Below are positions 3,542-26,043 of a stretch of DNA of 33,944 nt, in pieces. Position numbers and translations under genes: made by a program. Source of the DNA: a virus; the IMG/VR virus record IMGVR_UViG_3300030117_002915, positions 1-33,944 of that record. One strand, 5' to 3'. Within the stretch, counting starts at the first letter, position 1, and every line of letters begins with the position of its first letter. The notes below the pieces were generated by a model. That model had not been told where the DNA came from, did no database searches, and saw nothing but the letters and a program-made list of their open reading frames with translations.

Positions 3542-3627
3542 TGCCATATCACTACGGACATAGTTCAAAAAAGAAAAAAAACGGAAAAAAGAAAAAAAAG
3601 AAAATGATGAAGAGGAAAAAGAAATAA
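3541..3627 (+). CDS. 28-residue poly-lysine peptide
   Basis: A frame from an ATG that overlaps the preceding stop to a TAA that overlaps the next ATG. The peptide begins MPYHYGHSS and then is nearly all Lys. Tiny MPxHYG-plus-polylysine peptides occur beside these basic genes in related marine phages as I recall them. The coupling at both ends argues it is translated. Confidence 0.5.
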   Translation: MPYHYGHSSKKKKNGKKKKKKMMKRKKK

Positions 3628-4007
3628 TGTATAAGTTCGGTAGGCGGAGTCGAGAAAGACTCAAAGGGGTTGATGTTAGGCTGGTCAATGTATTAAATGA
3701 ACTAATTAAAATGATGGATGTTACTATTATTGAAGGACTCCGTTCTGCTGAACGTCAAAAAGAACTTTTAGCAAAAGGAGCTACTAAGGTAAAGTATTCT
3801 AAACACATGGAAGGTAAAGCAGTTGATTTAGCACCATACCCAATAGATTGGGAAAATAGAGATGGGTTTTACTATATGGGTGGAATGATCCGTGGTATAG
3901 CTAAACAAATGGGAATAAATGTAAGGTTTGGCGGAGACTGGGATAGCGATGGGGATACAAAAAACAATTCATTTGACGATTTAGTTCATGTGGAAATTAA
4001 AGATTAA
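3627..4007 (+). CDS. M15-family peptidoglycan peptidase (endolysin)
   Basis: A 126-residue single-domain zinc peptidase of the VanY/M15 type. It shows the family's EGLRSAERQ segment near residue 36, the metal motif SKHxxGxAVDL with His60 and Asp67, and the C-terminal DDLVHVEI with His121 as third ligand. There is no cell-wall-binding domain or signal peptide, so it would need a holin to reach the wall. It ends the block of small late genes that includes the candidate holin and spanin-like proteins, which supports a lysis role. The ATG overlaps the upstream stop. Substrate bond (L-Ala-D-Glu or D-Ala-D-Ala type) cannot be told apart from sequence alone. Confidence 0.85.
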   Translation: MYKFGRRSRERLKGVDVRLVNVLNELIKMMDVTIIEGLRSAERQKELLAKGATKVKYSKHMEGKAVDLAPYPIDWENRDGFYYMGGMIRGIAKQMGINVRFGGDWDSDGDTKNNSFDDLVHVEIKD

Positions 4008-12339: not shown

Positions 12340-13442
12340 TGGCAAATATGAATATAAGAACACCTGAATTTTATCCAGATAAAATAAGGCAGTTAAGAAG
12401 CAGAGGTGGAGGTATTGCTTCTATAATTACAGGTACTGATTTAATTGATTTTCAAACAGGCAATATTGCAAGTTTACACAATGGAAAACCTTTAGACTTA
12501 TGCACATTTAATACAAGTGCAGATCAAGATGGTCATGTTTTATTTAATTATAATTTTGGAACTGCTACTTTTAGAACAACTTATATTGCTGTTTTAAATC
12601 ATAATTTAAACAGTTGTAATGGCAAAATCAGAGTATTTGCAGGAAACAGTGCAACTTCAATAGATGATGTTAATGGAACAAATGCTGAGGCAGATGCTTT
12701 TGGTGATTTTAGCGTATTTCAAGTTGTAAATTGTGGAGATATAGACGTAGGGGGATCAGGTTCTGATCGAAAAAGTATTCATGTACACCCATCTAATAAC
12801 GGAACAACTATTTTTAAAATTGTACATGGTACGGATGGAAGTGATTTTACAGGATTTCGTTATATAGGAGTTCAAATTGAAGGAGATCAAGATGGTAGTG
12901 ACACAGGCTCAAGTGGAAACTTTGATGGAACTACTAATCTTTCAATAGGATGTATAGAAATTGGAGAAACATATAAAATGCCATATTCTCCCAACTTAGA
13001 TGTAACTAGGTCTATTATATACGATACAACAACAATACAGCAATCTGTAGGAGGTCAAAGATATGCAAACATGACATCGCTTGGAAGAACATCAACTTTA
13101 ACTAGCAAATCCCCTTTTTCCTTAGCTGATTATCAACAATATGCAAATAGTGGAAGAATAGTTTATGAAATGTCTTTTTCATATTTACAAAGCTCAGATT
13201 TAATGCCTACAGAATATGGGGAAGTAAATAATGCAAATGATTCTTTTATTACTGATGTTTGGGATGTTACACAGGGAAATTTTCATCCTTTTATATTCTC
13301 TATAGACTCAGAAAGTACATCAATGGATACAGAGGCATCATCTGAATTTATATATGCTAGATTTGCTCAGGAATCACTAGAAATGAATCAAGTAGCTCCT
13401 GATGTTTTTAACATATCACTTACGATTGAAGAAGAGTTTTAG
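12339..13442 (+). CDS. Minor tail structural protein (367 aa)
   Basis: The ATG overlaps the preceding stop (TAATG). The product is beta-rich with galactose-binding-like text (FRTTYIAVLNHNLNSCNGKI, GFRYIGVQIEGDQ) and a final repeat of structural strands (RFAQESLEMNQVAPDVF). It is the last gene of the rightward tail operon and its end overlaps the leftward NinB-like gene tail-to-tail by 23 bases. A tail-tip or baseplate component is likely from position. Confidence 0.6.
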   Translation: MANMNIRTPEFYPDKIRQLRSRGGGIASIITGTDLIDFQTGNIASLHNGKPLDLCTFNTSADQDGHVLFNYNFGTATFRTTYIAVLNHNLNSCNGKIRVFAGNSATSIDDVNGTNAEADAFGDFSVFQVVNCGDIDVGGSGSDRKSIHVHPSNNGTTIFKIVHGTDGSDFTGFRYIGVQIEGDQDGSDTGSSGNFDGTTNLSIGCIEIGETYKMPYSPNLDVTRSIIYDTTTIQQSVGGQRYANMTSLGRTSTLTSKSPFSLADYQQYANSGRIVYEMSFSYLQSSDLMPTEYGEVNNANDSFITDVWDVTQGNFHPFIFSIDSESTSMDTEASSEFIYARFAQESLEMNQVAPDVFNISLTIEEEF

Positions 13443-13737
13443 GATCAGGAATAACTATGTTCATCTCTACAGCACTCCATCTAATTAAACGCTCTATAAA
13501 TACTGAAAATTCTTTTGTTGATAGCGTTTTAGTGCTATCTATATTAAAATGATTTTTTATAGTGGAGTGCATTTCTTGTTCAGTGTATCCCAGTTCCTCA
13601 CCCAATATACCTACAATCTTCCAGTAATAGTTATTTTGCTGGGCAGAGCGTACACCAGTTTCTTTTAGTTCAATATAATACTCACCCTGCAACTTAGATA
13701 TAGCATTGTCAAATTCAGTCCTATTTAATAAGGACAT
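13420..13737 (-). CDS. NinB-like recombination protein
   Basis: Start chosen at the ATG at 13737, which has AAAGG upstream and leaves an 11-base gap after the previous gene; the frame extends to 13779. The 105-residue product carries the NinB/Orf pattern: RSAQQNNYYWKIVG, then LGYTEQEMHSTIK and a closing helix ending NIVIPDPKTL. NinB/Orf proteins bind ssDNA and modulate RecA-type recombination in lambda; ours is shorter than lambda Orf. It closes the early operon. Confidence 0.65.
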   Translation of the reverse strand: MSLLNRTEFDNAISKLQGEYYIELKETGVRSAQQNNYYWKIVGILGEELGYTEQEMHSTIKNHFNIDSTKTLSTKEFSVFIERLIRWSAVEMNIVIPDPKTLLQS

Positions 13738-13748
13738 CTTACCTTTCT

Positions 13749-14009
13749 TTATTTTACAAGCAAATCGCAGTCTGGACATATCTTAGCTTCCCATAGTTTC
13801 ATATCAGAGGACTTCCAGAGTTCACCTTCAAATATATTCCATTTCTTGCGACACTCTGGACACCACCAGAGATCTTCATCTGCTCTGATTTCATCTGTTT
13901 TGTGATTTTCCCTAAATCTTGTTTCTACTACATGGCTATCGAGAGCATCAATAACCCATTGAATAGAGCCAAATTTATTTTGGTTTTCCTTTACTTTTTC
14001 TTTCTTCAA
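13749..14009 (-). CDS. Small zinc-ribbon-like protein (CPEC...CPDC)
   Basis: The frame begins at a TTG (14009) with a GGCGG-like ribosome site; no ATG is available. An N-terminal Lys/Glu-rich helix is followed by WWCPECRKKW and, 30 residues later, KICPDCDLL, two CxxC knuckles that should bind one zinc. It overlaps the upstream gene by 35 bases. Function unknown; one of several small CxxC proteins in the early operon. Confidence 0.6.
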   Translation of the reverse strand: MKKEKVKENQNKFGSIQWVIDALDSHVVETRFRENHKTDEIRADEDLWWCPECRKKWNIFEGELWKSSDMKLWEAKICPDCDLLVK

Positions 14010-15053: not shown

Positions 15054-15416
15054 TTAAAAATTGAATGATTCTTGAGCTAATCTTGTGATGATCTCCTCAT
15101 AATCATCATCATTAAATTTTACTATTTTATTTTTTCTTTCCTTTAATACTTCGTACCATCGGATGCCACGCTTTTCTACTGCCCATTCAACAAACTCCGC
15201 AGGAGTCTTATGAGCAGAGAATTTTGAGGAGAACACATGGCATCCGACACAGAGACAAAAACCATTATCAATATCCCAACGAACCGAGCGAATAGATCGT
15301 GAATAAAAGTGATGTGCATTTAGGGGTTTCGTCTTGTGGCAATATTCGCACATACCATATTCTTTTATTTTGTCCGACCATACTTTATCTAGCTTTTTTG
15401 ATAATGATTTCTTCAC
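15054..15416 (-). CDS. HNH-type endonuclease / recombination nuclease
   Basis: A 120-residue protein starting at a GTG, six bases after the SSB-like gene. It has the zinc-supported HNH layout: CEYCHKTKPLNAHHFYSR, then DNGFCLCVGCHVFSS, with paired Cys knuckles around the HH dyad. The combination resembles NinG-like or stand-alone phage HNH nucleases. Its place between SSB-like and CxxC genes in the replication operon suggests a recombination or packaging-related nuclease rather than a homing enzyme inserted in a gene. Confidence 0.7.
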   Translation of the reverse strand: MKKSLSKKLDKVWSDKIKEYGMCEYCHKTKPLNAHHFYSRSIRSVRWDIDNGFCLCVGCHVFSSKFSAHKTPAEFVEWAVEKRGIRWYEVLKERKNKIVKFNDDDYEEIITRLAQESFNF

Positions 15417-19242: not shown

Positions 19243-20037
19243 TTATCTCCCATTTAAATATTTATGTTGAATGTTCTGAAACTTAGTAAATCCATTTTCA
19301 GATTTTTTTCTCAGTGACTTTATGCTGAGTAAAGTCTTGCCCCAAAACTTATCATGTACTGCCCAGCTTATAACATTCTTAATATCATCATACTCAAAAC
19401 CATCTTTTTTAATTAAATCATAAAGTATATTTATACTGCCATTTACAATATCAAGGTTATCATCCCAATTTTTTTCTATTATGTTTGGGTATCTCGATTC
19501 TTGTATATTATAAAAATCTTTTACAATTTTATACAAAGCATTTTTCTGCTTTCCGCTGATCTGATTATTTAGCTTAGTATCTTTAGAATTGCCATTGGTA
19601 TATACTTTTCTTATACTATTATTATTATATAATAATGATTGGGTATTTTGACTAAGCATATTGCCATTTAATTGTAATTCACCCTCGTTATTATTATTAC
19701 CCCCTACGTTATTTTGCACATAGGGTAATTTAGAATTGTTATTTAGATATAGGCAATTTTGTATAGGGGTAATATATCTTTTCTTAAATTTTTTAGTATT
19801 TTCTTCGTACTCATATACTATGTTTATAAACCCATATTTTCTCAAGCTAGATATACTTCTTGAGGCTGTGTCTTTGCTCATGTCAAACACCCTGCTAAAA
19901 TAAGAATTGTTCTTAACACAAACCCCATCTTTTTCTAAGCAAGCCATAATCTCTGCAAAAATTAATTTGGCATTTGCTGTTAATTCAGTATGGTATCTCA
20001 CATCACTAGGCATAACTGCATAATAACTACTTTGCAT
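19243..20037 (-). CDS. Replication initiator / replisome organiser with winged helix
   Basis: A 264-residue protein. Residues 1-75 form a winged HTH (LTANAKLIFAEIMACL, then FSRVFDMSKDTASRSISSL) of the HTH_36 kind common in phage replication proteins. A long Asn/Ser-rich linker follows (about 95-165), then a helical domain ending in FWGKTLLSIKSLRKKSENGF, the kind of C-terminal end seen in DnaD/lambda O-like organisers. It lies one base before the primase-helicase gene, a pairing like O/P or initiator/helicase modules. The linker DNA could hold an origin, as in lambda O; I see no clear iterons there. Confidence 0.75.
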   Translation of the reverse strand: MQSSYYAVMPSDVRYHTELTANAKLIFAEIMACLEKDGVCVKNNSYFSRVFDMSKDTASRSISSLRKYGFINIVYEYEENTKKFKKRYITPIQNCLYLNNNSKLPYVQNNVGGNNNNEGELQLNGNMLSQNTQSLLYNNNSIRKVYTNGNSKDTKLNNQISGKQKNALYKIVKDFYNIQESRYPNIIEKNWDDNLDIVNGSINILYDLIKKDGFEYDDIKNVISWAVHDKFWGKTLLSIKSLRKKSENGFTKFQNIQHKYLNGR

Positions 20038-24675: not shown

Positions 24676-24739
24676 TTTGTTTTGTTTCTCCTCATGGCTA
24701 ACGCCATTGTTATTTAAATCAATATTTAACATGATGAAA

Positions 24740-25195: not shown

Positions 25196-25276
25196 TGAGC
25201 GATATGAGCGTTTAATATATTATATATATGAGCGTTTTGAGCGTTAGGGGTGTAGGGCGGATGAGCGTTATGAGCG
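25196..25276 (+). repeat. TGAGCG iteron array with 33-base period
   Basis: Six copies of TGAGCG start at 25196, 25205, 25229, 25238, 25262 and 25271. Spacing is exactly 9, 24, 9, 24, 9, that is three tandem pairs of TGAGCG(A/T)T(A/T) repeated every 33 bases (about three helical turns). The first spacer is entirely A/T after the second copy, like an unwinding element; the second is G-rich. One copy in reverse lies at 25016. Candidates: replication origin iterons, or the recognition site of the small terminase encoded 130 bases downstream. Confidence 0.8.
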
Positions 25277-25367
25277 ATTGCGTTATTACGTGTTCCCCAT
25301 AAAATAAATAAAAACAAAGTCCTACAGGCTGTTCCGTAAAAAAAGTCAAAAGAAAGTCCATAAATCC

Positions 25368-25396
25368 TTGCACTAAAGTAATAAAGTCCGTATAAT
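25368..25396 (+). promoter_or_regulatory. Strong sigma70-type promoter of the small terminase gene
   Basis: TTGCAC, 17 bases, then a perfect TATAAT (25391-25396). The ATG at 25405 begins eight bases after the -10, so transcription would start at or within two bases of the start codon; no ribosome binding site is present. This implies a leaderless mRNA. Confidence 0.65.
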
Positions 25397-25404
25397 ATAC
25401 CATA

Positions 25405-26043
25405 ATGAGTGTTGTCCTACCAGATAAATTAAAGCCAGCTATGGGTATTGCCATAGATATGTTAGTTACTGATCCAGAGGCTAAAATGAAAGATGTAGCT
25501 GAGAAATCAGGTGTTAATGTTTCTACTTTGCGAAGATGGATGAAAGATCCTGAGTTTGTAGAGGTGTTCTATCAGAAGTATATGGTTACTTTTGGTTCTA
25601 GGTTGCCAACTGTGCTTAATAGTATGGTTCGTGAGGCTGAGGCTGGCAATGTGCAGGCTGGTAGGTTGGTTTTGGAACATTCAGGTAAACTTATCAAACG
25701 AGTTGAGGTAAACAATCATCAAAGTCCCTTTGAAAAGTTCCTTAATTCACAAGTATCAGACATGGAAGAGGTTGAGGTTTTAGAAGCTGACTATGAGGAT
25801 ATTGAGGTTTTACCTCAGCGACCTATTGTGCCAGAAAAACCCCCTACTAAAAAAGAGTTATCTACTCAACAAAAGAAAGCAGACAGAAAGAATGAAAAGC
25901 GTAGAGAGGCTAGGCGTTGGAGACAGAGAGCTGAAGCCGTAGGTGTTGCAAGACCAAATAAAGGCAGGCAAACCCCAGCACAAAGAAAGGCTTGGCAGGA
26001 ACAAATAATAAAAAGAGAAAAAGCACTCAATATTGCTTTTTAA
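25405..26043 (+). CDS. terS: Small terminase subunit (TerS)
   Basis: A 212-residue protein. Residues 20-60 hold an HTH (EAKMKDVAEKSGVNVSTLRRWM), followed by the oligomerisation-type segment LNSMVREAEAGNVQAGRLVLEHSGK and the NNHQSPFEKFL stretch often seen in HTH_23/phBC6A51-like small terminases. The C-terminal third is acidic and then very basic (KADRKNEKRREARRWRQR), longer than usual. It would bind the packaging site and hand DNA to the large subunit. Unusually, the large subunit gene is on the other strand and ends facing this gene. Confidence 0.75.
   Translation: MSVVLPDKLKPAMGIAIDMLVTDPEAKMKDVAEKSGVNVSTLRRWMKDPEFVEVFYQKYMVTFGSRLPTVLNSMVREAEAGNVQAGRLVLEHSGKLIKRVEVNNHQSPFEKFLNSQVSDMEEVEVLEADYEDIEVLPQRPIVPEKPPTKKELSTQQKKADRKNEKRREARRWRQRAEAVGVARPNKGRQTPAQRKAWQEQIIKREKALNIAF

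Follow-up and report, generated by a model that had tools for sequence, protein, structure and literature searches.

Phased TGAGCG doublets upstream of the small terminase gene of an uncultured phage family: a possible optional arm of a packaging-initiation site

To our knowledge, the manner in which a small terminase chooses its own DNA has been settled at the atomic level for only a few phages. Opinions differ on whether the DNA wraps round the ring of this protein (TerS) or is threaded through it. In TerS rings, neighbouring helix-turn-helix (HTH) domains are separated by roughly one turn of DNA, and DNA segments of about 100 bp, the length TerS is thought to wrap, would suit wrapping (PMC4737164), whereas the TerS of HK97 threads the DNA through its channel instead (PMC11331095). 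The SPP1 packaging site pac (pacL-pacC-pacR) lies beside and upstream of terS, with repeat boxes flanking one side of the cut region (PMC6316719, PMC4856287, PMC4737164), and as it covers the promoters PL1 and PL2 as well as the start of gene 1 (PMC6316719), packaging and transcription signals can overlap. In lambda cos (cosQ-cosN-cosB), whose cutting leaves cohesive ends, the three R sites of cosB are located between cosN and terS, while the TerS site in HK97 cos lies 15-29 bp from the cut and needs an A-tract (PMC11331095). Direct repeats that precede late operons including terS also serve as binding sites for late activators of the Ltr/RinA/Alt kind (PMC13123087); these repeats are required and are found at -107 to -42 from the start.

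The locus considered here is part of a complete linear IMG/VR record of 33,944 bp, the whole of which was analysed and is referred to as the window. Its features are as follows, where position 0 is the conserved TTCC of the motif TTCCYC-AWAAAW.

25196-25210, plus strand: distal doublet TGAGCGATATGAGCG, at -97 on the lattice counted from the TTCC of the core
25229-25243, plus strand: middle doublet TGAGCGTTTTGAGCG, lattice position -64
25246-25261, plus strand: left core half AGGGGTGTA with GGGCGGA, conserved in relatives
25262-25276, plus strand: proximal doublet TGAGCGTTATGAGCG, at -31 on the lattice, directly adjoining GGGCGGA of the core
25268-25291, no strand: interval between the core halves in which contig ends and a scaffold gap cluster, a weakly indicated candidate cut region
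25293-25322, plus strand: right core half TTCCCCATAAAATAAATAAAAACAAAGTCC (TTCCYC and an A-rich tract)
25316-25389, plus strand: three AAAGTCC copies (at 25316, 25353 and 25383), conserved in the stretch between core and terS
25368-25396, plus strand: promoter-like TTGCAC-N17-TATAAT of terS, ending 8 bp before the ATG
25405-26043, plus strand: terS, small terminase of 212 aa with an N-terminal HTH

A search of the whole window places TGAGCG on the plus strand at 25196, 25205, 25229, 25238, 25262 and 25271, i.e. with spacings of 9/24/9/24/9 and doublet-to-doublet distances of 33/33, and these positions and spacings are exactly those of the original prediction. The array is far beyond chance: the window holds 11 matches on both strands against 3.35 expected (sd 2.0), a count obtained in 0 of 100 shuffles, and first-order Markov simulations (n=3000) of the intergenic region (672 bp) never gave six copies of a G+C-rich 6-mer, the maximum being five, seen once. 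The predicted distances of about 130 bases to terS and about 460 to the early operon are likewise borne out, as the terS ATG at 25405 lies 128 bp past the end of the last copy and the early-operon start codon at 24732 lies 464 bp from the first, and the AT-only stretch is found in the 18 bp separating doublets 1 and 2, which consist of A/T only. The 18-mers separating the doublets are identical at just 5/18 positions, and due to this the 33-bp period does not derive from a recent tandem duplication. However, the 9/24/9/24/9 arrangement, although correct for the window, is not a general rule and is typical only of its closest kin; similarly, of the proposal that the doublets recur every 33 bp on the same face of the helix, the 33-bp lattice stands but not as a strict rule, as interstitial and reversed members are present in relatives.

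A scan with TerS yielded 72 loci with TerS 57-100% identical, and scans for two doublets in register yielded 17 contigs when exact and 43 when gapped. All of these relatives are uncultured contigs, many of them fragmentary, and the counts given are of contigs as records, near-duplicates being merged only where they are called distinct. The A+T-rich non-coding arrays found by the exact and gapped scans all belong to the terS family of the window, in which the array adjoins terS in relatives with TerS 63-100% identical. Other doublet arrays from the scan of 2.9 million contigs were rejected, these being G+C-rich repeats of a type common in coding sequence and belonging to unrelated phages. Within 30 whole related contigs, every TGAGCGNNNTGAGCG doublet is upstream of terS and none is elsewhere, the reversed-pattern control over the same contigs giving zero, and in a degenerate scan of 0.77 Mb the terS-upstream site accounted for 63/69 doublets and the equivalent site in L054 for 2 of the remaining 6. 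The doublets thus adjoin the small terminase gene, occur essentially nowhere else in these genomes and are particular to the phage genome. Neither a DNA similarity search with the region nor a protein search with TerS gave a match among 50,697 phage records. Judged from the sequences of the relatives, the doublet array is real and functional-looking.

The number of doublets per relative varies from 0 to 4, on either strand, and their consensus is TGAGCG-WTW-TGAGCG, in which the spacer T is invariant among 47 distinct 30-mers chosen to contain an exact doublet. Forward doublets start at -30/31 (22), -63/64 (14), -79 (5), -96/97 (14) and -129/130 (2). One clade has an extra doublet half-way (spacing 17/16/33), the variant half-sites TGCACG and TGGGCG occur in relatives, and inverted doublets occupy lattice positions in L028, L029 and L045, with a reversed arm in the L044 group. 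In every clade with forward doublets the distance from doublet to TTCC is constant at 30-31 bp, whereas that from TTCC to the terS ATG ranges from 109 to 215 bp, and hence it is the core, not the terS promoter, that the array goes with. The core itself is present even in relatives whose terS identity is as low as about 60%, and is missing only from the most distant ones. Its left half, GG(G)CGKA at -36/-37, is found in 41/52 relatives with or without doublets, and its right half is common to nearly all terS relatives whose contig extends far enough; the GGGCGKA and TTCCYC plus A-tract halves are 36 bp apart, and the AAAGTCC copies then follow. An Rfam search and RNA folding of the region and core gave no match, and RNAalifold found zero conserved base pairs in the core, i.e. 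no sign of a structured RNA leader.

Based on these observations, our preferred reading, which we hold at slightly below an even chance of being right, is that the doublets form an arm, optional and on the upstream side, of an element for DNA recognition which precedes terS throughout the phage family and serves as the cos/pac packaging-initiation site. A TerS ring with outward HTH domains would bind the core and also the additional phased half-sites of those relatives that have them; the DNA would be bent or wrapped, three doublets of 33 bp making 99 bp or about one turn per subunit of a nonamer, and TerL would be positioned for cutting in the interval that separates the core halves. The 99 bp is close to the length of about 100 bp suggested for TerS wrapping (PMC4737164). 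TerS as the binder, the cut at this place and the wrapping are all inferred; that TerS binds the doublets is probable. What the sequences themselves establish is the grammar of the doublets, their conservation, the fixed register to the core, the position before terS, the near-absence of doublets elsewhere and the lack of any RNA-structure sign.

The candidate cut region is suggested by contig edges. In several clades, left contig ends or N gaps precede TTCC by 2, 9, 10, 10, 17, 17, 18 and 25 bp, and two contigs coming from the left stop 3 and 9 bp before it; the clustering at -2 to -25 comprises 8/22 edges within 400 bp (p = 0.002). However, a junction of conserved and variable sequence could cause part of this pile-up, as shown by a second, smaller cluster of five contig edges or N gaps at -157 to -185, at a conserved TTTAATTTGTATA-CCACCC element. 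One full-length contig ending at the site (G031) has its other end elsewhere, and the near-complete contigs have ends that overlap or share a 99-bp k-mer overlap, which fits a circular map and leaves cos and pac unseparated; as indications of physical genome ends, the contig ends are suggestive only.

The locus resembles SPP1 pac in its position beside and upstream of terS and in having repeats that flank one side of the presumed cut region, and it resembles lambda cos in that recognition repeats precede the small terminase gene together with a candidate cut interval that has conserved sequence on either side. However, no sequence relation to SPP1 pac was found; here the half-sites are near-invariant, set on a 33-bp lattice and optional among close relatives, and the cut is only a candidate. 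The layout also differs from that of cosB, as, seen from terS, the doublets lie beyond the candidate cut interval, upstream of it or at its left edge, and only the AAAGTCC copies are located between this interval and terS; in place of the cohesive ends of lambda, the cut interval here is a candidate drawn from contig sequences. If the cut were near -15, the TTCCYC and A-tract would correspond to the short conserved HK97 site with its A-tract about 15 bp from the cut (PMC11331095), a likeness of description in which the distance here rests on the inferred cut.

The N-terminal HTH of TerS is of the Pfam HTH_Tnp_1_2 kind, and although its predicted model is of low confidence (pLDDT 69, pTM 0.32), the best structure match of this model is to nine chains of 2AO9 (E 0.013, probability 1.00), which is a nonameric phage TerS (PMC4737164, PMC7672466). 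Recognition helices of the VSTxxRW group go with array-rich loci, L034 being an exception, and those of the xATxxNW group with few, inverted or no doublets. However, L011 and L012 have identical TerS HTHs, and a doublet is present in L012 but absent in L011, so that doublets are not indispensable for TerS. Absence of the array from relatives that keep the same terS had been named beforehand as grounds against the prediction, and this pair of loci is partly such a case. Further, the presence of the array requires 4-5 changes on the TerS, initiator, TerL or early-gene trees, and when trees of TerS, initiator, TerL, helicase and early gene were compared with array presence no gene stood out. The predicted partnership with terS is therefore upheld by context, viz. 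the position beside terS and the locking to the core, but not by the terS trees, which are no better than those of other genes.

A strong rival reading, which we consider somewhat less likely than packaging, is that the doublets are sites of a phage or host regulator which replace a sigma70 promoter, the core serving as leader or operator for transcription that runs rightward into terS. Its chief support comes from the array-less relatives, in which TTGACW-N17/18-TAWATT occurs with its -10 element at -24 to -32, i.e. exactly at the site of the proximal doublet: near-consensus sigma70 promoters (>=9/12 matches, i.e. at least nine) are found at 20/30 distinct array-less loci and 0/24 array-bearing loci (Fisher p = 1e-7), and GGGCG falls within the spacer of these promoters, like an operator. 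This replacement suits transcription at least as well as packaging. Upstream of terS in L035, L038-L042 and L063-L067, the near-consensus promoter just before the core has CCCC/GGGG in its spacer, and at times there is a second promoter further upstream. Helical phasing of the kind seen in the array is usual for the sites of activators and repressors, and the late activators provide a precedent of several direct repeats before terS-containing units (PMC13123087). However, whereas the repeats of the latter are required and have a set distance from the start, the doublets are optional and their distance to the terS promoter (-35 at 25368) is not fixed, varying by about 100 bp between clades. This concerns the promoter of terS only, and a promoter at the core itself may still be involved. 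In addition, terS stands alone on the plus strand, the early operon to its left running leftward and the genes to its right (for a neck-like protein, a 426-aa protein and terL) being on the minus strand, so that the transcript would serve terS alone. The arm can also be reversed (L044 group), the doublets are at no other promoter of these genomes save for a weaker copy in L022-L024, and no small basic regulator could be recognised nearby among the early-gene products, although several of these are unassigned to a family. A promoter scan of the window region gave no more matches than shuffles did. The terS mRNA in the clade of the window is apparently nearly leaderless, going by the TATAAT that ends 8 bp before the ATG; in distant relatives the terS leader is about 20 bp and contains AAGGA. 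The packaging reading is preferred over transcription control because the interval of contig ends falls between the core halves.

The arm is made differently in some relatives. L147 and the L044 group have copies of GGCGTA/TACGCC, partly as 11-bp doublets, where 0.1 would be expected per 220 bp; in L147 (reverse complement) the GGCGTA doublets are 11 bp apart, on both strands, 60-105 bp before TTCC. As GGCGTA is the core's own motif, the arm of L147 resembles extra copies of the core-bound sequence, as if one protein read both core and arm, while between TGAGCG and GGGCG there is only a resemblance. An unlikely extension of the preferred reading is that of a packaging-initiation site with an exchangeable arm, which could consist of a sigma70 promoter, of doublets of TGAGCG (with a 9-bp step) or GGCGTA (with an 11-bp step), or of both doublet types, each of them in register with the core shared across the family. 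If true, such an arm would tune or re-specify which genomes are packed, e.g. by keeping out DNA that belongs to satellites or to co-infecting kin. Array and promoter replacing each other at one position would illustrate how packaging signals and promoters trade places, and close relatives with zero to four identical phased sites and one core offer a natural test of wrapping versus threading and of helical phasing. Repeats of GGCGTA/TACGCC are found instead of or alongside TGAGCG doublets in L044, L048 and L052.

It is improbable that the doublets bind a host DNA-bending or DNA-structuring protein which merely helps another complex at the core. Such a role would account for a half-site that is constant across phages while phage proteins diverge and for doublets that are optional and reversible, and IHF is used in this manner in lambda cos (PMC4856287); however, the site of a bending protein would not be expected to look like a direct-repeat doublet whose 6-bp half-site is sharply defined, and no candidate motif is available for comparison. 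The sole host hint is L235 (JALRGT010000068.1): this contig of 3.3 kb, assigned to a Flavobacterium MAG by binning, encodes a TerS 86% identical; its coverage is low and it is possibly a stray phage contig.

The other predicted partner of the array was the replication initiator, for which two features are relevant.

19243-20037, minus strand: replication initiator (winged helix, disordered linker and DnaD-like C-terminal part), rejected as partner of the array
19518-19797, minus strand: ACCCY/RGGGT repeats in the stretch of the initiator gene that encodes the linker, a likelier site for the replication origin

That the doublets are iterons of this initiator, marking the replication origin, is very improbable, although their geometry beside an A+T-rich stretch is iteron-like and RGGGT, a motif of the initiator gene, is also found directly upstream of the core at 30/52 loci. 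The initiator genes hold origin-like repeats of a different motif, present in 18/18 of them: the linker-coding parts of the 18 relatives' genes contain 78 ACCCY/RGGGT motifs against 24 +/- 4 under synonymous shuffling, with inverted pairs spaced 21-23 bp (two turns) in the window, L006, L012, L063 and others. From this pattern the origin probably lies inside the initiator gene, a layout matching the lambda-O type, to which the array bears no likeness, and there is therefore no reason to seek initiator iterons at 25200. Further, within one initiator clade the array is present in L006/L007 and absent in L011/L033. Array iterons were accordingly rejected, and this part of the original prediction did not hold. 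A chance or assembly origin of the array, for which the A+T-rich, low-complexity surroundings are the only point, has a negligible probability, being refuted by the recurrence of the same register in independent contigs from many samples.

Elsewhere in the window, NinB/Orf-like and NinG/Rap-like recombination proteins (minus strand; 13420-13779 and 15054-15416) and an endolysin-family protein (3627-4007) are encoded. Off the main site, weaker lone doublets TGCACGATATGAGCG are located near the early-operon start (L022:72, L023:9434 and L024:5233), and another weaker lone doublet, TGAGCGTTTTGCACG, is found at L043:4981.
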